Assembly: GCF_030531065.1 (NCBI RefSeq)
Contig: NZ_JAUNOQ010000001.1
Span: forward strand, 124,001-188,000
DNA: 64,000 nt
Direction of reading: 5' to 3'
Source of the DNA: Phascolarctobacterium sp.
Lineage (GTDB): Bacteria; Bacillota; Negativicutes; Acidaminococcales; Acidaminococcaceae
This document shows positions 38,834 through 50,433 of this stretch, one piece after another. Under the pieces are notes generated by a model. It saw only the letters and a list, made by a program, of their open reading frames with translations, searched no databases and was not told the DNA's origin. Within the stretch, counting starts at the first letter, position 1. Every line of letters starts with the position of its first letter. Position numbers and translations under genes: made by a program.

Positions 38834-39030
38834 TTTGCGAAGCCGGCGGAAGCAAGCAGACCAAAGGGTCGCAAGAAGCAGAAACAAAAGCTAAACGCCG
38901 GCCAAAAGGTCTTGCGAGGGGGGGCAGATGTGCTAAAATATTCGTGAGTATGATTTTAGATTTGTCTGCGTTCAGCAATGTTGCCTTGAGCAAAGAGCTG
39001 GCGCAGCTTTAGGGATGGGGAGAAGAGCTC

Positions 39031-40440
39031 GTGAAACGCTATTACACGTCAATATTATTTTTGCTGTTTATAGCGTTGGACTATGTGGCGATACTTGGCG
39101 CTGAGCAGAGCGCTTTCTGCTTACGTAACTGGTTTTTACATTCGCGTAACCTGCACATTTCCTGGCTCAACTTTTGGATAGTATTTCCCAGCCTGTTCCT
39201 GCTCTTTATTCATCTGGGACAGCTGTACAGCCGCCGTATGCCCTTCTACAAGGAGGTAGAAAAGCTGTTCCACGCCTGCTGTTACGGTACGCTGGCCGTA
39301 ATTTTTGTGCTTTATGTGGCGCGCATCGCCGCCACTACCAGCAGGATGTTCGTGGGTCTTTTCGGCATACTGGCTTTTATTTTGCTGGCAGTCTGCCGCT
39401 ATGCAATCAAACGCTTTTTGCTGCATAAACAGTTACTACAAGGACCAATTGTAATTATTGGCGCGGGCAAAACGGCGGAGCTGCTGGTTAAGGGCATCGT
39501 CGGCGACGCTGGCTTAGGCTACAAAATCGTGGGTCTGTTGGAGGATAACCGCGTACAGCCGGGCATTTTGGAAAAATACCCTGTGCTGGGGCGCTTTGCC
39601 GACGCGGAAAGAGTTATCAAAGAAACAGGCGTGAAGCGCGTCTTTATCGCCGCTCCGGGGCTGGCAGAACGCAAATTGGGAATGCTGATTTACCGTATTC
39701 AACCGCTGGTAAAAAACATCGGCGTTATTCCTAACTTAGTAGGCGTGCCTACAGGAGCGGTGGAAGTAGAGAGCATGTTCAACGAGCGCCTGGTGCTGCT
39801 GCGTTTGAAGAATAATCTGGCGCGGCCGCTGAACCGCTGGCTGAAAACAATTTTCGATTACACGCTGACGATTGTTGGCACGATTTTGATTTCTCCGGTT
39901 TTACTGTTTATCGCCGCCTGGATTTATAAGGATTCGCCGGGGCCGGTGATTTTTAAACACACGCGCGTCGGGAAGAACGGCAAGCCGTTCCCCTGCTATA
40001 AATTCCGCAGTATGTGCGTGGACGCCAAGGAAAAGCTGGCGGAACTGCTGGCTAACGACCCGGCGGCGCGGGCAGAGTGGGAAAAAGACTTTAAGCTGAA
40101 AAACGACCCGCGCATTACCAAAAGCGGCGCGTTCTTGCGCAAGACCAGCCTGGACGAGCTGCCGCAGATTTTTAACGTGCTGCGCGGCGAGATGAGCTTA
40201 GTAGGACCCAGACCGATAATAGCGGAAGAACTGGTGCGTTACGGCGAGTATGTGGGAGATTACCTGATGGTGAAGCCGGGCATAACCGGCATGTGGCAGG
40301 TAAGCGGCCGCAGTGACACCACCTATAACGAGCGCGTGCAGCTGGACAGCTGGTATGTGCGCAACTGGAGCGTATGGCTGGATGTGATGCTGCTGTGGCG
40401 GACTGGGAAGAGCGTGTGCAAGTGTAAGGGAGCGTATTGA
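39031..40440 (+). CDS. wbaP: Undecaprenyl-phosphate sugar-1-phosphate transferase, WbaP type
   Basis: 469 residues from a GTG start. Polyprenyl-phosphate sugar transferase that starts O-antigen or capsule repeat units by moving a hexose-1-phosphate (galactose in WbaP) onto undecaprenyl phosphate. Four to five N-terminal helices, a central Rossmann-like CoA_binding_3 domain (VIIGAGKTAELLVKG) and a fifth helix precede the catalytic domain: SPGPVIFKHTRVGKNG, CYKFRSMCVDA, KTSLDELPQIFNVLRGEMSLVGPRP, and VKPGITGMWQVSGRSDT. Full length. Opens the polysaccharide cluster. Confidence 0.9.
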   Translation: MKRYYTSILFLLFIALDYVAILGAEQSAFCLRNWFLHSRNLHISWLNFWIVFPSLFLLFIHLGQLYSRRMPFYKEVEKLFHACCYGTLAVIFVLYVARIAATTSRMFVGLFGILAFILLAVCRYAIKRFLLHKQLLQGPIVIIGAGKTAELLVKGIVGDAGLGYKIVGLLEDNRVQPGILEKYPVLGRFADAERVIKETGVKRVFIAAPGLAERKLGMLIYRIQPLVKNIGVIPNLVGVPTGAVEVESMFNERLVLLRLKNNLARPLNRWLKTIFDYTLTIVGTILISPVLLFIAAWIYKDSPGPVIFKHTRVGKNGKPFPCYKFRSMCVDAKEKLAELLANDPAARAEWEKDFKLKNDPRITKSGAFLRKTSLDELPQIFNVLRGEMSLVGPRPIIAEELVRYGEYVGDYLMVKPGITGMWQVSGRSDTTYNERVQLDSWYVRNWSVWLDVMLLWRTGKSVCKCKGAY

Positions 40441-40442
40441 GA

Positions 40443-41258
40443 ATGTTGAAATTTTCCGTACTGCTTTCTGTATATAAAAATGAAAAGCCGGAATATCTGC
40501 GTTTGGCGTTGCAGAGTATTACCGCACAAACCTTGCAGCCAAACGAGATAGTTATCGTCAAGGACGGCGGCTTAACGCAGGCTTTAGATTCCGTGATAGA
40601 CGATTTTGCCACAAAGCAGCAAAACGTAAAAATCCTGCCCTTTGCGCAGAACAGAGGTTTAGGCTTGGCGCTGCGGGACGGTGTGGAGGCTTGCAGTTAT
40701 GCATACATTGCCCGTATGGATACCGACGATATAGCGCTGCCTGAACGCTTTGCCAGGCAGATGACTTATCTGGAAAAGCATCAAAATATCGCATTGTTGG
40801 GTTGCTGGATAACGGAATTTTCCCGTGATACGAATAAGCCGGACACTATAACAAGACTACCTTATGAGCATGAAGCTATTATTGCCTACGCCAAGAAGCG
40901 CAATCCTTTCCGGCATATGACGGTGGTTTTTAAGAAAAGCGCCGTTATAGCCAGCGGTAATTATCGGGATTTTTTGTGGTTTGAGGATTACGATTTGTGG
41001 GTGAGGATGCTGCAGCAGGGCTATAAGGCGGCCAATCTGCCGGAGGTGCTTGTAAACGTTCGGGCTGGGGAAGAAATGTTTGCCCGGCGCGGCGGGTGGA
41101 GGTATCTAAAGCAGGAAGTAAGGTTTCAGAGAGCGCTGTATGAGCGGGGATTTATTGGCTTATTGATACTCATACAGAATATTTTATGTAGAAGCATAAT
41201 GAGAACATTACCAGTGAAGATGAGAAAGTGGATATATACGCATTTTTTGCGTGCATGA
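40443..41258 (+). CDS. Family 2 glycosyltransferase
   Basis: 271 residues from ATG 40443 (a TTG at 40437 overlapping the wbaP stop is possible). GT-A fold: FSVLLSVYKNEKPEYLRLALQSI, IVIVKDGGLT, and the metal-binding DTDDIALPERFARQ. GNYRDFLWFEDYDLWVRML contains the acceptor-side ED motif of amylovoran- and WsaF-like GT2 enzymes. Cytoplasmic enzyme adding a sugar to the lipid-linked repeat. Overlaps licD by 8 nt. Confidence 0.88.
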   Translation: MLKFSVLLSVYKNEKPEYLRLALQSITAQTLQPNEIVIVKDGGLTQALDSVIDDFATKQQNVKILPFAQNRGLGLALRDGVEACSYAYIARMDTDDIALPERFARQMTYLEKHQNIALLGCWITEFSRDTNKPDTITRLPYEHEAIIAYAKKRNPFRHMTVVFKKSAVIASGNYRDFLWFEDYDLWVRMLQQGYKAANLPEVLVNVRAGEEMFARRGGWRYLKQEVRFQRALYERGFIGLLILIQNILCRSIMRTLPVKMRKWIYTHFLRA

Positions 41259-42141
41259 AAAACTAATGAGAGAATTATCAATTTCTGAAATAAAAAGATT
41301 ACAGTTAGATATGTTAATTGAGTTCGCAAAATTTTGTGATAAAAATTCTTTAACTTATTATTTGGGCGGCGGTACATTATTAGGAGCCGTCAGGCATAAG
41401 GGGTTCATTCCATGGGATGATGATATAGATATTATGATGCCCAGGAAAGACTTTAATAAAGCGATATTATTATACAAGAATGAAATTTATAGATTGAATT
41501 ACATTACTAATACTAAAGCTTGGTGTGAGCAAATAGCAAAGTTGTGTGATATTAGGACTTATGTATATGATGACTCTTTTAAAAATACAGAAATTGACGA
41601 GATAAATTGCCTTGGTATAGATATTTGCCCTATTGACGGTTTGCCTGATGAAATTTGGAAACAGAAGGTCTTGTTTTTAGTAAGCCGAATGATTATTGCT
41701 ATTCATTCAGCCAGTGTTTTATCGTTTAAAACGACTAAGCGTTTTGCTGATAAACCAGCAGGGATATTTCATTGGAAAAAATCGTTAAGAAATATAGTTA
41801 AATATGTGATGATATTTTTATTTGGAAGAACTGATCCGCAGTATTGGGTAAAGTTGCTTAATAGATTGGTAACAAAAGAAGATTTTTATAACCATGAATA
41901 TGTCGCTGCCTTAGTATCCTGTGTACATGGCAGTAAGGAGAAAATGCCTAGCAGAATATATGAGCCTAAGATTAAGCTGGAATTTGAGGAATATAAATTT
42001 TGGGCTCCTGCTGATTATGATTATTATTTGAAAAGATTATATGGAAAATATATGGAATTGCCAGCTCCTGAACATAGGGTGGCACATCATGGATACAAAG
42101 TATACATTAAAAATAATATCTGGAGGAAAACAAATGCTTAG
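41251..42141 (+). CDS. LicD family phosphotransferase
   Basis: 296 residues. LicD proteins attach phosphocholine or other phospho-alditols to glycans. The family signature is clear: YYLGGGTLLGAVRHKGFIPWDDDIDIMMPR (about residues 35-65), a nucleotidyltransferase-like fold with the metal-binding DDDID. The acceptor and phospho-group are unknown, but the TarI-like and TagF-like genes next to it point to an alditol phosphate rather than choline; no choline kinase or transporter genes are present. From here on the cluster is strikingly AT-rich. Start overlaps the GT2 gene; the end overlaps the next gene by 8 nt. Confidence 0.85.
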   Translation: MHEKLMRELSISEIKRLQLDMLIEFAKFCDKNSLTYYLGGGTLLGAVRHKGFIPWDDDIDIMMPRKDFNKAILLYKNEIYRLNYITNTKAWCEQIAKLCDIRTYVYDDSFKNTEIDEINCLGIDICPIDGLPDEIWKQKVLFLVSRMIIAIHSASVLSFKTTKRFADKPAGIFHWKKSLRNIVKYVMIFLFGRTDPQYWVKLLNRLVTKEDFYNHEYVAALVSCVHGSKEKMPSRIYEPKIKLEFEEYKFWAPADYDYYLKRLYGKYMELPAPEHRVAHHGYKVYIKNNIWRKTNA

Positions 42142-43378
42142 TTTAAAAGAAAAAATTATTAGAGCTTTAGTTGAAGGAAATTTTTGTAAAAAAGTGCTTG
42201 GAAAAATTGATAAAGAATTAGGGAGTTTTACTAGAATGTTAGTTTCTAAAAACATTAAAATTCAACATAATAAAATATTATTTATAAATTATCAGGGGGA
42301 TTATGCTTGTAATCAAAAATATATTTGTGAAGAAATATTGAAACAGAATTTACCTTGGGATATCGTTTTTGCTGTAAAAGATATAAATAAAGTTAAATAC
42401 AACTTTCCCAAAGGAATTCGCCTAGTGAAAAGGCATTCTTATGAGTTTTATAAGGAAGCGTTGTCTGCCCATGTGTGGATTGATAATGCTCATAATTTGC
42501 TACATGAAAATGTCCCAAAAAGAAAAGAGCAATATTTATTTAATACTTGGCATGGTTCAATGGGCCTTAAACGAATAGGTCGGTGTAGTGAGAAAGATGT
42601 GGAATGGGTAAAACGTGCTCGAAAATATCATGATAATACAAATTATTGTGTATCTAATAGTGAATTCGAGACCAATGTATACAGAGAAACATATTGGAAC
42701 AATAAAATGACGGAAATATTATTATATGGACATCCTAGAAATGATATTTTGTTTATTGATGATGATAAAAAATTAAAAATAAAAAGTAAGGTATGTAAAA
42801 AATTAAATGTTAATGTTAATGTTAATGCTAAATTAGCATTATATGCTCCAACATTTAGAGAATTATATAAGTCAGATTGTTTTTCTGTAAATTATGGATG
42901 TTTATATGATGCATTAAGGAAGCGATTTGGTGGAGAGTGGATCATTTTAGCTAGACATCATTTTCATCTTAAGAGTAGCAGCTTAGCATATGATACTATT
43001 AAGAATTCAGAACATGTTGTGAGGGCAACTGATTATGATGATATGCAGGAATTGATGGTTGCGGCTGATATTGGCATTACTGACTATTCTTCGTGGATTT
43101 GTGACTTTGTTTTAACAAAAAAGCCCGGATTTATTTTTGCTACGGACTTAAAAGAATATAATAATGGCCGTGGTCTCTATTATCCATTGGAAACAGCACC
43201 GTGGCCAATAGCTGAAAGCAATGATGCTCTTATTGAAAATATTTTGAGTTTTGATAATGAGAAATATCAAAAAGATGCAGAGCAGTTTTTATATGATAGA
43301 GGCTGCTGCGAAGATGGGCAGGCCAGTCGTAGAGTTGTAGAAAAAATCAAGGAGATAATGGAGAATACTGCATCATGA
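42134..43378 (+). CDS. CDP-glycerol/CDP-ribitol glycerophosphotransferase family protein (TagF/TarL-like)
   Basis: 414 residues from ATG 42134 (GGAGG upstream). Family motifs: YLFNTWHGSMGLKRIGR (with the essential His), ILLYGHPRNDILF, LALYAPTFRE, ILARHHFH, and the C-terminal ITDYSSWICDFVLTKKPGFIFATDL. These enzymes transfer glycerol- or ribitol-phosphate from a CDP donor onto a glycan or polymerise it, at the membrane. In this diderm context it probably decorates or builds a surface glycan. A short TTAATG tandem repeat region encodes NVNVNVNA at about residues 228-235. Overlaps the next gene by 4 nt. Confidence 0.88.
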   Translation: MLSLKEKIIRALVEGNFCKKVLGKIDKELGSFTRMLVSKNIKIQHNKILFINYQGDYACNQKYICEEILKQNLPWDIVFAVKDINKVKYNFPKGIRLVKRHSYEFYKEALSAHVWIDNAHNLLHENVPKRKEQYLFNTWHGSMGLKRIGRCSEKDVEWVKRARKYHDNTNYCVSNSEFETNVYRETYWNNKMTEILLYGHPRNDILFIDDDKKLKIKSKVCKKLNVNVNVNAKLALYAPTFRELYKSDCFSVNYGCLYDALRKRFGGEWIILARHHFHLKSSSLAYDTIKNSEHVVRATDYDDMQELMVAADIGITDYSSWICDFVLTKKPGFIFATDLKEYNNGRGLYYPLETAPWPIAESNDALIENILSFDNEKYQKDAEQFLYDRGCCEDGQASRRVVEKIKEIMENTAS

Positions 43379-44094
43379 ATATAGCAATTATATTCGCTGG
43401 CGGAACTGGCCAGCGTATGAATACAGCGTCCAAGCCCAAGCAATTTTTAGAATTGCATGGAAAGCCGATTTTGATATATACGCTGGAGCATTTTCAAAAG
43501 CATGAGCAAATTGACGGAATTATTCTAGTCTGCTTAGAAAATTATATAGCTTATTGTAAAAATTTATTGGTTAAGTGGCAAATCAGCAAGGTCGCTGAAA
43601 TTGTTTCAGGCGGCACCAGCGGTCAGGAATCAATTTTTCATGGATTACAAGCTGCTCATAAGCTTTATGCGGATAGTGATATTGTGCTTATTCATGATGG
43701 TGTACGTCCGTTAATAAATGAACAGGTTATTACAGATGCTATTATCTGTACAAAGCAGTATGACAATGCTATTACTGTTTCGCCAGCTATTGAAACCGTA
43801 GTTATTAAGCAGGAAAGCGGGCATATAGGGGATATTTTAAATCGTTCTGTTTGTGAGTTGGCAAAAGCTCCGCAATGCTTTTATTTAAAAGATATTTATG
43901 AAGCTCATCTAAAAGCCAATGAAGAAGGCAGACATGATTTTATTGATTCTGCAAGTATTATGCAATATTACGGATATACATTGAATACGGTTATTGGTCC
44001 GACAGAAAATATTAAGATTACTACTCCGTCAGACTTTTATACGTTTAGAGCGATTATTGACGCTAGAGAAAATATGCAGATTTTAGGATTGTGA
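43375..44094 (+). CDS. D-ribitol-5-phosphate (or related alditol phosphate) cytidylyltransferase, TarI-like
   Basis: 239 residues. IspD/TarI family: IIFAGGTGQRMN at the N-terminus followed by KPKQFLELHGKPILIYTLEHF; AGGTGxRM is typical of TarI rather than the AAGxGxRMG of IspD. LIHDGVRPLI and the C-terminal NIKITTPSDF are shared family motifs. Makes a CDP-alditol from CTP. Neighbouring LicD and TagF-like genes use such donors, which supports the TarI assignment over methylerythritol metabolism. Linked to both neighbours by 4-nt overlaps. Confidence 0.82.
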   Translation: MNIAIIFAGGTGQRMNTASKPKQFLELHGKPILIYTLEHFQKHEQIDGIILVCLENYIAYCKNLLVKWQISKVAEIVSGGTSGQESIFHGLQAAHKLYADSDIVLIHDGVRPLINEQVITDAIICTKQYDNAITVSPAIETVVIKQESGHIGDILNRSVCELAKAPQCFYLKDIYEAHLKANEEGRHDFIDSASIMQYYGYTLNTVIGPTENIKITTPSDFYTFRAIIDARENMQILGL

Positions 44095-45149
44095 TAGCTA
44101 TGTGGATAAATAATGAAATTTTTAAAGAGGATTTGCAACAAATAGTTAATATAAAGTATATTCCTTGGGAAAATTTTAAGTCTAAGACCATCTTGATAAC
44201 GGGCGGTACTGGGTTGATTGGCTCAACCTTGATCAGCGCTTTGCTTTATGCTGATCGAGTAAAAGAATTAAATCTAAAAATTATTGCTTTGGTAAGAGAT
44301 TTAACAAAAGCAGAGCAGCAATTTGCAGAGCAGCAGAATTTTTCTGATGCCTTAAGCTTTGTTGTGGGAACAGTAGAAAAAATGCCTGCAATAGATATGC
44401 CTGTTGACTATATTGTGCATGGAGCAGGACCTACAGCTAGTAATTTTTTGGTTGAACATCCGGTAGAAACTATAAGGATAGCTGTTCTGGGAACGGCTAA
44501 TATGCTGGAAATAGCGAAAGCAAAGAAAGTAAAAGGCTTTGTGTATCTTTCTAGTATGGAGGTTTATGGTGCGCCGCATACTGATACTGTAATTGAAGAA
44601 ACTCAAGGAACAACAGTGGATACTATGTCGGTACGCAGTTGCTATCCAGAAGCTAAGCGTTTATGTGAAAGTCTTTGCGCAAGCTATTTCAGCGAATATG
44701 GTGTTCCGGCTATGGTAATAAGATTAGCTCAAACCTTTGGACCTGGAGTAGCGGCAAAAGACCAAAGGGTTTTTGCGGAATTTGCCCGTTGTGCAATGAA
44801 TAGAAAAGATATTGTATTACAAACTGCTGGTACAAGTAAGCGTTGTTATCTTTATACTGCTGATGCTGTTACGGCAATTTTGACGTTATTGTTGACTGGT
44901 AATTCAGGAGAAGCATATAACGCTGCTAATAATACAACGTATTGCAGTATTGTAGAAATGGCGCAGATGGTTGCAGAAAAATTAGGTGATAATAAGATAA
45001 AAGTTATTGTGGCAGTAGATGGAAAACACGAACAAAAATTTCCTCCTACTCATAAGTTAAATTTAGGGATTGGTAAATTGCAAGGTTTAGGGTGGAACGC
45101 TTCGAGAAACCTGCTGGAGATGTATGCAAGAATGATGGGGACAATGTGA
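44091..45149 (+). CDS. NAD-dependent epimerase/dehydratase (extended SDR)
   Basis: 352 residues. Rossmann motif ILITGGTGLIGSTLISALL and the SDR catalytic pair in SCYPEAKRLCESLC (Tyr-x-x-x-Lys), with upstream Ser in VYLSSMEVYG. An N-terminal ~30-residue extension precedes the nucleotide-binding fold. Extended SDRs of this kind next to TarI-like genes may reduce a keto-sugar phosphate or epimerise a nucleotide sugar. GTG 44091 overlaps the previous stop as GTGA; ATG 44100 is an alternative. Confidence 0.85.
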   Translation: MIAMWINNEIFKEDLQQIVNIKYIPWENFKSKTILITGGTGLIGSTLISALLYADRVKELNLKIIALVRDLTKAEQQFAEQQNFSDALSFVVGTVEKMPAIDMPVDYIVHGAGPTASNFLVEHPVETIRIAVLGTANMLEIAKAKKVKGFVYLSSMEVYGAPHTDTVIEETQGTTVDTMSVRSCYPEAKRLCESLCASYFSEYGVPAMVIRLAQTFGPGVAAKDQRVFAEFARCAMNRKDIVLQTAGTSKRCYLYTADAVTAILTLLLTGNSGEAYNAANNTTYCSIVEMAQMVAEKLGDNKIKVIVAVDGKHEQKFPPTHKLNLGIGKLQGLGWNASRNLLEMYARMMGTM

Positions 45150-45150
45150 C

Positions 45151-46044
45151 ATGGACTTAAAGTGGAGTATTTTAAGTAAATATAGAAATGAAATATATGG
45201 ATTTAGTGCTCTTTGGATTATAGTATTTCATCTTGTAATTATAAAAAGAGCTAGTTTTAGCAAAGAAATAGCTTTTTTGTCGGATTATTTTCTTCACGGT
45301 AATTGTGGTGTAGAAATATTTTTCTTCCTTTCAGGAATAAGCCTATTTTATGCAATTAAAAAGAGCAAGTCACTTTGTGATTTCTATGTTAGAAGATTTA
45401 AGAGAATACTAATACCTCTTTTCATAATTGATGGAGTTTACTGGCTGTGCTTATGCTTGGTTGGGGATATAAGTGTATTACAGTTTTTGAAGAATATAAC
45501 TTTTTATTCTTTTTGGCTTGAAGGAAATAGCCTAGTGTGGTTTGTTGCCTGTTTAATAGTGTTATATATTTTTTATCCGTTGATATATAAATATATTTTA
45601 AATAACCAATCATTGACTATTCAAGGAAAATTGATGTGCATAATAATGATGTGCGTGTGTAGTTATATATTTTGCTGGCTGTTTAAATCATTTGATGCAG
45701 TATGGTATAGAAATATAGAAAAAGCGCTTACTCGCATACCGGTATTCTTATTGGGATGCTATTGTGGCATTTTATGCTATGAAGAAAAGTCTTTGAGTAC
45801 ATTAGTAAAGTTTGGTTCTTTAATTATTACATTGATAGGAATAGCTTACTTTTTCGAGCATCCCGTGTCTTTATATAAAAGTTATAGAATACCTTATTTG
45901 TTAGTAGGGCCTAGTATTGCTATTTGGCTTGCAATTTGTTTAGATACAATACAGAGCAAACTTTTGAATAGAATGATGTGTTTGTGGGGGGGGACTTTCA
46001 CTGGAGCTGTATTTGTCCCATGTGATTCTCATAATTTTGTTTAA
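45151..46044 (+). CDS. Acyltransferase family 3 (OafA-like), frameshifted at a G8 tract
   Basis: The readable frame gives 297 residues of a polytopic O-acyltransferase: N-terminal FSALWIIVFHLVI (catalytic His region), NCGVEIFFFLSGISLF, FYVRRFKRILIP. It diverges after a run of eight G (45986-45993). Skipping one G continues the protein as GGLSLELYLSHVILIILFKE and on for ~60 codons without a stop to TGA at 46181-46183. SLELYLSH is the family's C-terminal motif, total ~344 residues is the usual length, and the restored stop overlaps the next start as ATGA. So the gene is presently 'off', phase-variable, or the G count is a sequencing error. Confidence 0.8.
   Translation: MDLKWSILSKYRNEIYGFSALWIIVFHLVIIKRASFSKEIAFLSDYFLHGNCGVEIFFFLSGISLFYAIKKSKSLCDFYVRRFKRILIPLFIIDGVYWLCLCLVGDISVLQFLKNITFYSFWLEGNSLVWFVACLIVLYIFYPLIYKYILNNQSLTIQGKLMCIIMMCVCSYIFCWLFKSFDAVWYRNIEKALTRIPVFLLGCYCGILCYEEKSLSTLVKFGSLIITLIGIAYFFEHPVSLYKSYRIPYLLVGPSIAIWLAICLDTIQSKLLNRMMCLWGGTFTGAVFVPCDSHNFV
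45986..45993 (+). repeat. Homopolymeric G8 tract in the acyltransferase gene
   Basis: Eight consecutive G within the coding region. Seven G put the remaining ~62 codons in frame, with a conserved C-terminus and an ATGA junction; eight G give the early stop at 46044. Slippage at such tracts is a known on/off switch of surface-glycan genes. Confidence 0.8.
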
Positions 46045-46179
46045 AGAAAGCGTTTTGTATGGGCATTCTTCGGTTGCAAATTTTTACAAAGCTTTTTTCT
46101 TTGTCGTACCTTTGTCGTTTGTTATCAGTAAATTAACTAGCGTTTTGTACAATAAGATTACAATAAATAGGAGAGCTGT

Positions 46180-47487
46180 ATGAAAAAATTAAATCATTGC
46201 GTAGCTTTTGGAATAACTTCCAATTTAACTTTTGCTGTTGCTAATGTCATTATAGGGATAGAAAAATATTCTCCCGGATTAGTAGATAAATATATAATTT
46301 TTTTTGATGAGAAAGATCCTATAGCAGAGGAAGAAATGCAGGTGATTTTAAAAATATCTTCCAAAGCTGAGTTTAGAGAATTAAATATGGAAAATGTCCA
46401 TATCCCAGAAGATGGATTAAAACGTTTTTCTGCATTGAATTATGCAAAAAATCAAGTCTTTAGACTTTTAAATGAATTTCATAAGGTATTATGGCTGGAT
46501 GCAGATATTGTGATTCAGGATGATATATCTGAAATATTCAAGTATACTCCGATGGCTTGGAGAAAAACAGTAGTTCCTTTTAATAAAAAGATTTCGTGTT
46601 GGGAGGGGAATCTAATAGGAGAAGAATATACTGCTCCTAATGGTGGTGTAATTTTTGTTAGCGATGAATTAGAGGATTATGATAGTCTTTATGACAAATC
46701 TTGTGATGTAATGGAAAAGTTGTTCAGAACAGTTAGTATGGTGGCACTCGATGAGCTTACTTTTGGAGTTTTAAATTTTCAATATAACTTAGGCGCTAAA
46801 GAGTTACCAGCTAAATATAATAGCGGTTGTGGGTGGAAGGACTCGCAGCATGCGTGTTTAGTACATAGTATTGGTACAGATAAATTTTGGAATGATGCTT
46901 TAAGGCATATTATGTTTCCTCAATGGGAACAGTTTAACAGTATATATTTAGCTGCTGGCGGAACGAATAGTCCGCAGAAAAAGCTTAAGCGGGAAGGCTA
47001 TTTAGGGAAGTCTGCACGTTCTGTGTTTGCCGCTTTTAAAAATTATGATTATTGGTGTGCATTGACAGAGAAAGCAAGCTTTTCCGAAGCGATAATTCCG
47101 GGGCATAATTATTTCAAAAAATATATTCAATACTTTCTAAAGAAAACCAACAAAAACATCCACTACGAGTTAATAAAATGCTCTGATAAACAAGTGAAAG
47201 TAGCCCTTCTTTTTGAAAAACAATATACAAATGTGTTAGCGGGGGGGACGAGTGCTTGTGAGGATTTGATAAGCTTTCAAAATTCTCTTTCGTTTAATTT
47301 GGAACAAAATGAGAAAGTTGTTTCTTTATATAAAATTGTAGATGAGAGTAAGGCAATAGCTACTTTAAAACGATTGATGGCAGCAACTGTTAATTGGATA
47401 ATGCTGACTTATGCCAGTAAATTAACACGCAAAGAGAAAGCGAAGCTTTATTTGAAATTTTATTATCGTAAAATTAAAGATTTTTAA
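46180..47487 (+). CDS. Family 8 glycosyltransferase-like protein
   Basis: 435 residues. GT8 hallmarks: an N-terminal VAFGITSNLTFAVANVII region, FRLLNEFHKVLWLDADIVIQDD with the metal-binding DxD, APNGGVIFVSDEL and, further on, YNSGCGWKD and CLVHSIG (with the C-terminal His). The N-terminal ~280 residues form the catalytic domain; the last ~130 residues are unassigned. A G7 tract at 47241-47247 lies in frame in that tail. AGGAGAG precedes the ATG, which overlaps the restored stop of the acyltransferase. Adds a sugar (UDP-glucose or galactose typical) to the surface glycan. Confidence 0.82.
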   Translation: MKKLNHCVAFGITSNLTFAVANVIIGIEKYSPGLVDKYIIFFDEKDPIAEEEMQVILKISSKAEFRELNMENVHIPEDGLKRFSALNYAKNQVFRLLNEFHKVLWLDADIVIQDDISEIFKYTPMAWRKTVVPFNKKISCWEGNLIGEEYTAPNGGVIFVSDELEDYDSLYDKSCDVMEKLFRTVSMVALDELTFGVLNFQYNLGAKELPAKYNSGCGWKDSQHACLVHSIGTDKFWNDALRHIMFPQWEQFNSIYLAAGGTNSPQKKLKREGYLGKSARSVFAAFKNYDYWCALTEKASFSEAIIPGHNYFKKYIQYFLKKTNKNIHYELIKCSDKQVKVALLFEKQYTNVLAGGTSACEDLISFQNSLSFNLEQNEKVVSLYKIVDESKAIATLKRLMAATVNWIMLTYASKLTRKEKAKLYLKFYYRKIKDF

Positions 47488-47509: not shown

Positions 47510-48286
47510 ATGGATTTAGTATGGCAGAAAGTGCGAAAAAATCAATTCATGTTTGAAGAACTCGTCAAGCGTGACTTTAAACAAAAATATAAACGTACAG
47601 TTTTAGGTATGGGCTGGAGTATTCTTTCTCCTTTGCTGACTTTATTGGTATTGAAATTAGTATTTGGTCATTATTTTGGCCGGGGTATGGAACACTACAC
47701 TATTTATTTGTTTTGCGGCAACCTGCTTTTTCATTACTACCGTGAATCCACCAGCGGCGGCATGAACTCTTTAATGAGCAATGCAAAAATTTTTACCAAA
47801 ATCAATGTGCCGAAATATTTATTTTTACTTTCTAAAAATGTATCAGCCTTTATCAATTTCTTGCTGACGCTGTGCGTATTCTTTATTTTTGCTTTCCTTG
47901 ATGATATCAGCTTTGGTCTGCATTTTTTTGCTTTATTGTATCCCTTGGCCTGCCTGGTTGTTTTTAATATCGGCATTGGCTTGATTTTATCCGCTTTATT
48001 TGTCTTTTATCGTGATATCAGCTATTTGTATGACGTATTCACGATGCTGGTAATGTATTGTTCGGCAATTTTTTATAATGTGGATGTTCTGCCCGCCGCT
48101 TACCAAAAGCTGTTTTTGCTCAATCCGGTATACACATATATTAAGTATTTTCGCACCGTAGTGCTGGAGGGGCGGCTGCCGTCTGCTGAATACCATCTGC
48201 TGTGCGCGTTTTATGCATTTTTGGCTTTGGGCATAGGCGCGTGGATTTATAAAAAGTATAATCATAAATTTTTGTATTATGTGTAG
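47510..48286 (+). CDS. wzm: ABC transporter permease for surface polysaccharide export (Wzm/TagG type)
   Basis: 258 residues with six hydrophobic helices (about 30-50, 60-80, 105-135, 145-165, 175-195, 230-250). N-terminal amphipathic ELVKRDFKQKYKRTVLGMGWSILSPL is the ABC-2 polysaccharide-exporter signature. With its ATPase it moves lipid-linked O-antigen or teichoic acid-type polymers across the inner membrane. The ATPase gene (wzt, 49483) is normally adjacent but here lies beyond an antisense Rpn gene. Base composition returns towards the genome average. Confidence 0.9.
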   Translation: MDLVWQKVRKNQFMFEELVKRDFKQKYKRTVLGMGWSILSPLLTLLVLKLVFGHYFGRGMEHYTIYLFCGNLLFHYYRESTSGGMNSLMSNAKIFTKINVPKYLFLLSKNVSAFINFLLTLCVFFIFAFLDDISFGLHFFALLYPLACLVVFNIGIGLILSALFVFYRDISYLYDVFTMLVMYCSAIFYNVDVLPAAYQKLFLLNPVYTYIKYFRTVVLEGRLPSAEYHLLCAFYAFLALGIGAWIYKKYNHKFLYYV

Positions 48287-48445: not shown

Positions 48446-49240
48446 CTATACGCGGATAGCTTTAACCTGTTCCAAGGTGAGGTTAGTAGCCAGTACGATA
48501 GCGTCATCGCTGAATTCACCTGATTTTTTCATGTTTTTGGCGATGTCTAATGTAGCTTTTTCTTCGCCTCTGGCAAATGCGACATCGGATAAATCGTTGA
48601 TAATTTTGCACATAGTTTGCACTCCTTCCTCAGTTTCCTTTAAGTATTTTACGCGTTCTTGTAATTGTTTATAATGCATATCGCAGGCATTGGTGCAGAA
48701 GAAGTCGTGCATCAGCCTGCTTAAAGCGGTTTGGTCGTAGCGACAGTTGCCGTTGACATAAATAATATGCGAGCCGTCTTTAAAGCGGGCTCCGCTTTCT
48801 TCAATCTTACGCTCGATGTGGTAAATAGGGCGGCCTTCGCCTAAGATGTCGTCCTGCGCAATAAAGATTACATAGGTATCAAAGAGCTTCTGGTAATCGG
48901 TACTTTTGGGAAAGTGGGCAGTATCGACAACGCCGCTATAGTAACGGGCACGCTGTGGTGAAGCTCCTTCGCTGGCGCTTTGCACTTCTACATTGAAGTA
49001 TTTTCCGGCTGCGTCTTTAGCGAGCAGGTCCAGCTGTACGGAATGGCCGTAAAGATTGCTGACAACGTACTGGCTTAGAGCTTTTATCACTTTAATTTTA
49101 TCATCTTGCAGGATGATGCGCAAGAGAAGCTCGGCGGCGGGAATATTGTTTTCGAAGGCTTTGCGCATAAAGAAATCGTCGATAAGGCGCAGGCGCGCAA
49201 TAGCGTCGAGATATTCCGGCTTAACAAATTCATTGGGCAT
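48446..49240 (-). CDS. Rpn family recombination-promoting nuclease / PD-(D/E)XK transposase-like protein
   Basis: 264 residues. The N-terminus (PEYLDAIARLRLIDDFFMRKAFE) and the nuclease core QLDLLAKDAAGKYFNVEVQ, followed by ARYYSGVVD, match the Rpn (YhgA-like) group; Asp and Glu-x-Gln are the metal-binding residues. Other members stimulate recombination or act in phage defence. The C-terminal ~80 residues are helical and charged. It is intact, has its own promoter and terminator, and lies antisense between the permease and ATPase genes of the exporter, so it is probably a mobile or late insertion. Confidence 0.85.
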   Translation of the reverse strand: MPNEFVKPEYLDAIARLRLIDDFFMRKAFENNIPAAELLLRIILQDDKIKVIKALSQYVVSNLYGHSVQLDLLAKDAAGKYFNVEVQSASEGASPQRARYYSGVVDTAHFPKSTDYQKLFDTYVIFIAQDDILGEGRPIYHIERKIEESGARFKDGSHIIYVNGNCRYDQTALSRLMHDFFCTNACDMHYKQLQERVKYLKETEEGVQTMCKIINDLSDVAFARGEEKATLDIAKNMKKSGEFSDDAIVLATNLTLEQVKAIRV

Positions 49241-49482: not shown

Positions 49483-50433
49483 ATGGCCATTATTAAGGCA
49501 GAGGGCGTTTCCATACGTTATCTGACAGGAGATTTTAAAAATATCGGGCTTAAGGAGTATGTGGTACGCAGGCTTAAGGGTAATTATCGCGTTACAGAAT
49601 TTTGGGCGGATAAAAATATTACCTTTGCTTTGGGAAAAGGCGATATGCTGGGCATTATCGGCACTAACGGTGCAGGCAAGTCCACGCTGCTCAAAGCTGT
49701 ATCCGGCATTATGGTGCCAACTGAAGGTCACATGGAAATCAACGGCACAGTCGCGGCGCTGCTGGAGCTGGCCAGCGGCTTTGACGGCGATTTGACGGTA
49801 CGGGAAAATACTTATCTGCGCGGGGCGTTATTAGGCTATACCCGCAAATTTATGGAGGAGCAATACGATGCCATCATCGCTTTTGCCGAGCTGCAGGATT
49901 TTCAGGACCGGCTGTTTAAGCAGCTTTCCAGCGGTATGAAGAGCAGGCTGGCTTTCGCTATCGCCTGCTTAGTAAAACCGGATATTTTGATTCTGGACGA
50001 GGTTTTGTCGGTAGGCGACGGAGCGTTCCGCAAAAAGAGCGGGGATAAGATGAAGGAGATTTTGGCCGGAGGTGTAACTGGCATTTTGGTGTCCCATTCG
50101 CTGGGGCAGGTGCGGGAGCTGTGTAATAAGATTTTGTGGCTGGATCATGGAAAGCAAATTGCTTTTACTAACGAGGTAACACTGTACTGCGATGCCTACG
50201 AAGAGTTCCTGGCAACAAAAAAGCTGCCGAAAAGCGAGGCTGAAATAAAACAGTTGGCCGAGGGCTGGCGTAAGCGTCAGCAAAGGAAGCGTGAGGAAGC
50301 GGCGCGGACGGAAGCGCAGAAGCTGCAGGCGGTACTGGAAAAGGGCGAAAGCAAAGCGGCTTTAGAGGCGGCGCTGGCGATAGTCAAAAAACAAAGGCCG
50401 GAATTATTAAAGGAATATGCCGCAAGGCAATAA
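49483..50433 (+). CDS. wzt: ABC transporter ATP-binding protein for polysaccharide export (Wzt/TagH type)
   Basis: 316 residues. Walker A MLGIIGTNGAGKSTLLKAVSG, signature FKQLSSGMKSRLAFAIA, Walker B DILILDEVLSVGD and switch His in GILVSHSLGQV. The insertion LLELASGFDGDLTVRENTYLRG is characteristic of polysaccharide exporters. A C-terminal ~80-residue charged helical extension (residues ~240-316) rich in Lys, Glu and Ala replaces the carbohydrate-binding module of longer Wzt proteins. Partner of the permease at 47510. Its promoter is not obvious; the Rpn insertion separates it from the cluster promoter. Confidence 0.9.
   Translation: MAIIKAEGVSIRYLTGDFKNIGLKEYVVRRLKGNYRVTEFWADKNITFALGKGDMLGIIGTNGAGKSTLLKAVSGIMVPTEGHMEINGTVAALLELASGFDGDLTVRENTYLRGALLGYTRKFMEEQYDAIIAFAELQDFQDRLFKQLSSGMKSRLAFAIACLVKPDILILDEVLSVGDGAFRKKSGDKMKEILAGGVTGILVSHSLGQVRELCNKILWLDHGKQIAFTNEVTLYCDAYEEFLATKKLPKSEAEIKQLAEGWRKRQQRKREEAARTEAQKLQAVLEKGESKAALEAALAIVKKQRPELLKEYAARQ

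Follow-up and report, generated by a model that had tools for sequence, protein, structure and literature searches.

Within a 64,000-nucleotide stretch of a Phascolarctobacterium sp. genome (hereafter the window; the genome assembly comprises 2.37 Mb in 27 contigs), the frame of an acyltransferase gene is broken by a run of eight G residues. The locus raises the question of whether the broken frame reflects a sequencing error, a dead gene or one state of a reversible switch. The original prediction, made from the letters of the window, had suggested a phase-variable acyltransferase in a polysaccharide cluster. According to the analysis reported here, this tract very probably serves as a slipped-strand contingency site of an AT3-type acyltransferase gene that belongs to an ABC-exported surface glycan cluster.

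A G8 tract truncates an AT3 acyltransferase gene

Read with eight G from the ATG at 45151, the acyltransferase frame stops at 46044 and its terminal residues (WGGTFTGAVFVPCDSHNFV) are unrelated. Read with seven G, it continues as WGGLSLELYLSHVILIILFKES...INRRAV to a TGA at 46181-46183, and this stop forms an exact ATGA overlap with the ATG (46180) of a glycosyltransferase family 8 (GT8) gene; the remaining two frames past the tract run into early stops. The frame break, the extension of about 62 codons without a stop and the overlap with the next gene, all claimed in the original prediction, were thus recovered at these positions. The features of the cluster are collected in Table 1, together with the other genes carrying long coding tracts.

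Table 1. Features of the window glycan cluster and coding genes with long G/C runs elsewhere in the genome (positions refer to the window unless a contig is named).
Feature	Position	Strand	Remarks
Promoter-like site TTGCGA-GGGGGGG-cagatgtgc-TAAAAT	38912..38939	+	G7, 16-bp spacer; architecture found at 36 genome places
Bacterial sugar transferase (WbaP-like)	39031..40440	+	Cluster head; one of seven paralogs in the genome
Glycosyltransferase family 2	40437..41258	+	
LicD family phosphotransferase	41251..42141	+	
CDP-glycerol glycerophosphotransferase family (TagF-like)	42041..43378	+	
IspD/TarI-type cytidylyltransferase	43375..44094	+	
NAD-dependent epimerase/dehydratase	44091..45149	+	
AT3 (PF01757) acyltransferase ORF, eight-G reading	45151..46044	+	297 aa, truncated; Pfam profile 9-270 of 326
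G8 homopolymer	45986..45993	+	Contig C19 169986..169993; directly after codon 278 (Trp) boundary; acyltransferase frame broken (OFF state)
Acyltransferase continuation, seven-G frame	45994..46183	+	51% aa identity with ortholog over 55 post-tract codons
Glycosyltransferase family 8 gene	46180..47487	+	ATGA overlap with acyltransferase; own GGAG upstream
ABC-2 type polysaccharide export permease	47510..48286	+	
ABC exporter ATPase	49483..50433	+	
AT3	C9:72769		C10, ON
AT3	C20:89798		G9, ON
AT3	C10:79521		G8, OFF; Pfam profile split 2-204/213-324
GT2	C5:7720		C8, ON; run near start codon
YrbL-type gene	C21:202601		G8, OFF; profile split 1-144/142-183

The Pfam Acyl_transf_3 match rose from 88.6 bits with eight G (profile 9-270) to 99.9 bits with seven G (9-325 of 326), the curated cut-off of PF01757 being 31 bits, and the seven-G frame therefore belongs to the AT3 family over the whole domain. 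Two AT3 motifs, R/K-X10-H and V-X-X-F-F-X-(I/V/L)-S-G-(F/W/Y), have been described (PMC9558356). The first, located in TM1 of OafA and OafB, is absent from the window protein, which has Y16-X10-H27; the second corresponds to VEIFFFLSGI, which agrees at every position except the last. The ortholog described below also carries a Tyr at the place of Y16. The departure from the first motif is a subfamily difference, and membership by profile stands. Because R/K-X10-H is absent as such in this subfamily, an acyl-transfer activity is on less secure ground than the assignment to the family.

Tracts of at least seven G or C are used as the cut-off for phase-variable loci, and variation was seen at every tract of at least eight in C. 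jejuni NCTC 11168 (PMC6321876); hsdS tracts of (G)7, (G)8 and (G)9 vary between gonococcal strains (PMC5320596). The G8 tract exceeds this cut-off and lies at the short end of the range for a fast switch, and a unit change in its length toggles the acyltransferase between a complete and a truncated frame.

Elsewhere in the cluster, the GT8 gene holds an in-frame G7 at 47241-47247. A PDDEXK_2 gene (PD-(D/E)XK nuclease-family transposase) lies on the opposite strand between the ABC permease and ATPase genes (48446-49240); PDDEXK_2-like genes recur in the C20 cluster, as three copies side by side, and also on C9.

The seven-G frame is the functional frame

Among 63 genomes of the order, a single ortholog (51% identity) was found, in the genome G024, which belongs to another Acidaminococcaceae genus and whose locus is titled uncultured Phascolarctobacterium in the named collection. 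It is an intact 342-aa ORF with a G7 at the same base (AACTGGGGGGGACTTTCGCTTGAGCTGTATTTATCTCAT), preceded by a LicD gene and followed by an ABC-2 permease and an ATPase, an arrangement that resembles the window cluster. The SLELYLSH motif, singled out in the original prediction, is present in the same stretch of the ortholog. That prediction also expected seven G to restore the normal family length; the seven-G protein has 343 residues and the ortholog 342.

Agreement with the ortholog is equally good over 55 codons on either side of the tract: differences at the first, second and third codon positions number 20, 15 and 31 before the tract and 22, 15 and 30 after it in the seven-G frame. The intact G7 ortholog and the equal codon constraint on both sides of the tract show the seven-G frame to be the functional one, as had been proposed. 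Selection on the protein has thus been no weaker behind the tract than in the remainder of the gene, and the break is recent, with no sign of old decay.

When the first 278 residues were searched in the genus, the sole match was the gene of the window itself. An alignment of the two sequences, used as a query of genome contigs, recovered the G7 ortholog and distant relatives; the same contig scan with the single protein as query gave no match, and neither did a search of viral contigs with the tract flanks or a plasmid search. One distant AT3 relative, in an uncultured Bacilli MAG (L127:3555), breaks at a G9 located at another gene position and near a contig end.

Long G/C runs are concentrated in surface-glycan genes and promoter spacers

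A census of the whole genome identified 12 G/C runs of at least eight and 56 of at least seven in 2.37 Mb. Markov models of orders 2-5 predict 1.5-5 runs of at least eight (36 under order 1, which fits poorly), and the location of the 12 runs is a stronger argument than their number. Six are in promoter spacers, five of these before autotransporters, YadA-type adhesins or a TonB receptor. The other six are coding and all affect surface-glycan genes or their control: four AT3 genes (out of six AT3 matches in the genome), one glycosyltransferase and one YrbL-like kinase gene, three of them OFF and three ON. The YrbL-type gene is located in a glycan region and adjoins a UDP-sugar dehydrogenase-like gene. 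In this gene and in the AT3 gene at C10:79521, the Pfam profile resumes in another frame directly after the tract. Coding G7 runs are not specific, being present also in apparent NAD kinase, TGT and LysR genes, and the coding argument was therefore restricted to runs of at least eight. Combined, the confinement of all six coding runs to surface-glycan genes and the mixture of ON and OFF states support the predicted phase variation.

A sequencing or assembly error, in which the true tract has seven G and the gene is ON in all cells, is the best of the alternatives and is nonetheless improbable. Indel errors concentrate at long homopolymers, three of the six coding runs read OFF and the ortholog carries G7, all of which an error would accommodate; it does not explain why long tracts are almost confined to surface genes. 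The other three long-tract coding genes are in frame at C8, G9 and C10. A 488-kb sample contained eight A/T runs of 8-9 in coding-like sequence, and no convincing frameshift emerged from them; judged by eye, the remaining candidates resembled gene ends or antisense frames. A one-base error is possible for any single ON or OFF call at the longest homopolymers, and a length call off by one would leave the contingency-site reading intact.

The genome encodes an intact-looking MutS (861-aa frame at C10:32787), and loss of mismatch repair as the cause of the tracts is unsupported. Because MutS is present, slippage at G8 may be slow and switching rates may be modest.

An HsdS-like protein (412 aa, a type I restriction specificity protein by resemblance) is encoded around C26:180325 (L239), with a G7 near codon 207. 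This G7 sits between the two protein halves, an arrangement shared with the phase-variable gonococcal hsdS, and by that analogy the gene may possibly constitute a phasevarion.

Accessory AT3 genes of other genomes also carry long tracts

In genomes of the family, none of 30 top-scoring AT3 loci had a G/C run of at least seven inside the match. In lower-scoring, accessory AT3 genes, C8-C10 runs were found in four further genomes, at other gene positions, and two of these genes were frame-broken (C10 OFF in L188, C8 OFF in L190, C8 ON in L192 and C8 in L195); L118 carries a G7. Runs of at least seven occurred in 9 of 25 accessory loci and in 0 of 31 top-scoring loci (Fisher p = 2.7e-4, a guide only, as the two groups were split by score rank and not by tree). 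The long tracts of accessory AT3 genes in other genera add to the support for phase variation.

These genes bear on a second alternative, which is marginally less probable than a sequencing error: that a chance G7 received one inserted G and was fixed as a young pseudogene that does not switch. Ordinary codon choice for Trp and two Gly (TGG GGG GGA) can generate the G7 of the ortholog, and the presence of MutS would suit a fixed mutation. Against it, long tracts that are independent and differently placed occur in the three other AT3 genes, the GT2 gene and the YrbL-like gene of the same genome, accessory AT3 genes in other genera bear such tracts too, and the 62 codons after the tract contain no second lesion in the seven-G frame. 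A third alternative, which we regard as very unlikely, is that the G8 allele yields some full-length protein through transcriptional slippage or through frameshifting of the ribosome, the tract tuning the amount of enzyme with no on/off switch. Slipperiness is a possible property of runs of at least eight identical bases, and the ATGA overlap is kept; against this, the ortholog reads G7 in frame and makes recoding unnecessary, and no conserved slippery context or stimulatory structure is obvious.

A family of promoters differs in the number of G residues in the spacer

Among the 56 runs of at least seven, 36 lie between a TTG-type -35 and a TATAAT-like -10 element. The spacer is 16 bp long in 30 of 30 G7 promoters and 17 bp long in 6 of 6 G8 promoters (at C10:116182 it was counted from TTTACA, the best-scoring -35 falling one base off). 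The flanks are thus constant in length and the G number alone varies, which is a mark of slippage. Tract length varies between related copies, whether paralogs (C14:97594 with G8 and C22:8363 with G7 differ only in G number) or orthologous promoters of different species (L032 with G9 and L110 with G7; L099 with G9 and L101 with G7), and likewise between genera for the acyltransferase (G8 here, G7 in the ortholog); the promoter copies that differ only in G number further strengthen the case for phase variation. The pattern G7-N7-11-TATAAT has 23 matches in this genome, and a reversed-pattern control gave none. Of 59 genomes of the family, 24 have matches, and the pattern occurs in further families of Negativicutes as well.

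Downstream of the G-tract promoters are mostly genes of surface proteins: autotransporters, YadA-type trimeric adhesins, a ShlB/FhaC transporter, OmpM-like SLH porins and a TonB receptor. A few non-surface genes were found behind them, for example a GNAT gene (behind a G8) and a gene for a dynamin-like protein. The idea that these tracts are elements of tRNA or rRNA operons was rejected, as a single tRNA was found near them and mostly surface-protein genes follow. A firm assignment of G8/17 bp to ON and G7/16 bp to OFF was also dropped, as spacers in the family are most often 16 bp long at any G number and the OmpM-like porins use this length; the G tract may possibly be a fixed element of the promoter in which slippage is incidental. 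In related genera, small XRE-type repressor-like genes are found behind G-tract promoters (L042/L099, L101, L036, L094, L096), and these promoters have G9 or G7 depending on the species.

Six of seven parallel polysaccharide clusters share the G7 promoter

The WbaP-like transferase of the window (39031) has six paralogs with 71-94% identity, each the apparent head of a cluster. The G7 spacer promoter precedes six of the seven paralogous clusters, the window cluster included. The remaining cluster (L241, from C18:22644 on) is preceded by a TTGACT-17-TATAAT promoter, lacks G/C runs of at least six over 14 kb, and may be the constitutive cluster. Four of the clusters, on C19, C9, C20 and C5, contain a coding gene with a long tract. 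The C5 cluster has two homologous glycosyltransferase leaders (MYTPP..TDVS.EKN..AGG), one with a C8 in frame (L071:7713) and one with a C7 out of frame (L071:12846). The original prediction was right in placing the G8 tract in a polysaccharide cluster; it had missed the much larger set of which the tract is a part, including the G7 in the promoter of that very cluster.

Discussion

If the G8 tract switches the gene by strand slippage, as we favour, seven G or a frame-equivalent length would lead to synthesis of a 343-residue membrane acyltransferase. With eight or nine G, some 62 residues would be missing from the C-terminus, among them the conserved SLE-Y-LSH segment, presumably leaving a dead protein. 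Slippage during replication would move cells between the two states, and the modification, probably an acylation of the exported glycan, would be present or missing among cells of one clone. In the OFF state, translation would stop about 135 bases before the GT8 gene and coupling to it would be lost, though the GT8 gene has its own GGAG. The tract would belong to a genome-wide set with five more long-tract coding switches and 36 G7/G8 spacer promoters.

A broader proposal, to which we give an even chance, is that this Acidaminococcaceae gut commensal has a multi-locus phasome operated by G-tract slippage, in which promoters toggle between 16 and 17 bp and coding tracts edit the glycans. The promoter layer would comprise the 36 promoters, acting on autotransporters, YadA-type adhesins, porins and six of seven polysaccharide loci, and in the coding layer acyltransferases, a glycosyltransferase and a kinase would edit each glycan. 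Parallel polysaccharide loci are known from Bacteroides fragilis, where several capsule loci have invertible promoters and one is without a switch. The arrangement described here resembles it in having parallel loci, putatively switchable promoters and one locus without such a promoter (C18), and differs in that the putative switch, found at six of seven loci, would be slippage of a G-tract spacer, with no DNA inversion or invertase.

Poly-G frame switching of surface-glycan genes, homopolymers in promoter spacers and phase-variable AT3 enzymes are of a kind already known. The oafA gene of Haemophilus influenzae and other AT3 surface acetyltransferases are phase variable (PMC9558356), and the window gene would resemble oafA as an AT3-only enzyme acting on a surface glycan with phase-variable expression. 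It differs in the kind of tract, which is mononucleotide G and located late in the coding sequence (around codon 279 of 343), and in residing in a diderm Firmicute gut commensal; phase variation in H. influenzae uses mainly tetranucleotide repeats (PMC2651432). Campylobacter (PMC6321876) and the translational or C-terminal poly-G switches of N. gonorrhoeae (PMC5320596) likewise involve poly-G/C tracts of at least seven, surface-glycan genes and frame-dependent ON and OFF states. Compared to Campylobacter, the tracts are shorter here, mostly 7-8 against 9-10, MutS is present, and most tracts are in promoters, whereas 82% are in ORFs there (PMC6321876). The fetA and porA promoters of Neisseria also have a homopolymer altering -35/-10 spacing (PMC5320596); the list for one gonococcal strain has three phase-variable genes of the transcriptional type, in contrast to the 36 near-identical G-tract promoters found here. 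A full-text search of the open-access literature returned no paper on phase variation with Acidaminococcaceae, or with Negativicutes together with homopolymeric tracts; what that literature apparently leaves undescribed is this group of organisms, how numerous the promoter tracts are and how they are linked to parallel glycan loci.

In conclusion, a genome from a family of gut commensals bears the tract signature of a multi-locus phase-variable set. If the set does switch, the surface glycans and adhesins of these common gut bacteria would be mosaics within each clone, and phage susceptibility, recognition by IgA and strain typing from consensus genomes would all be affected.
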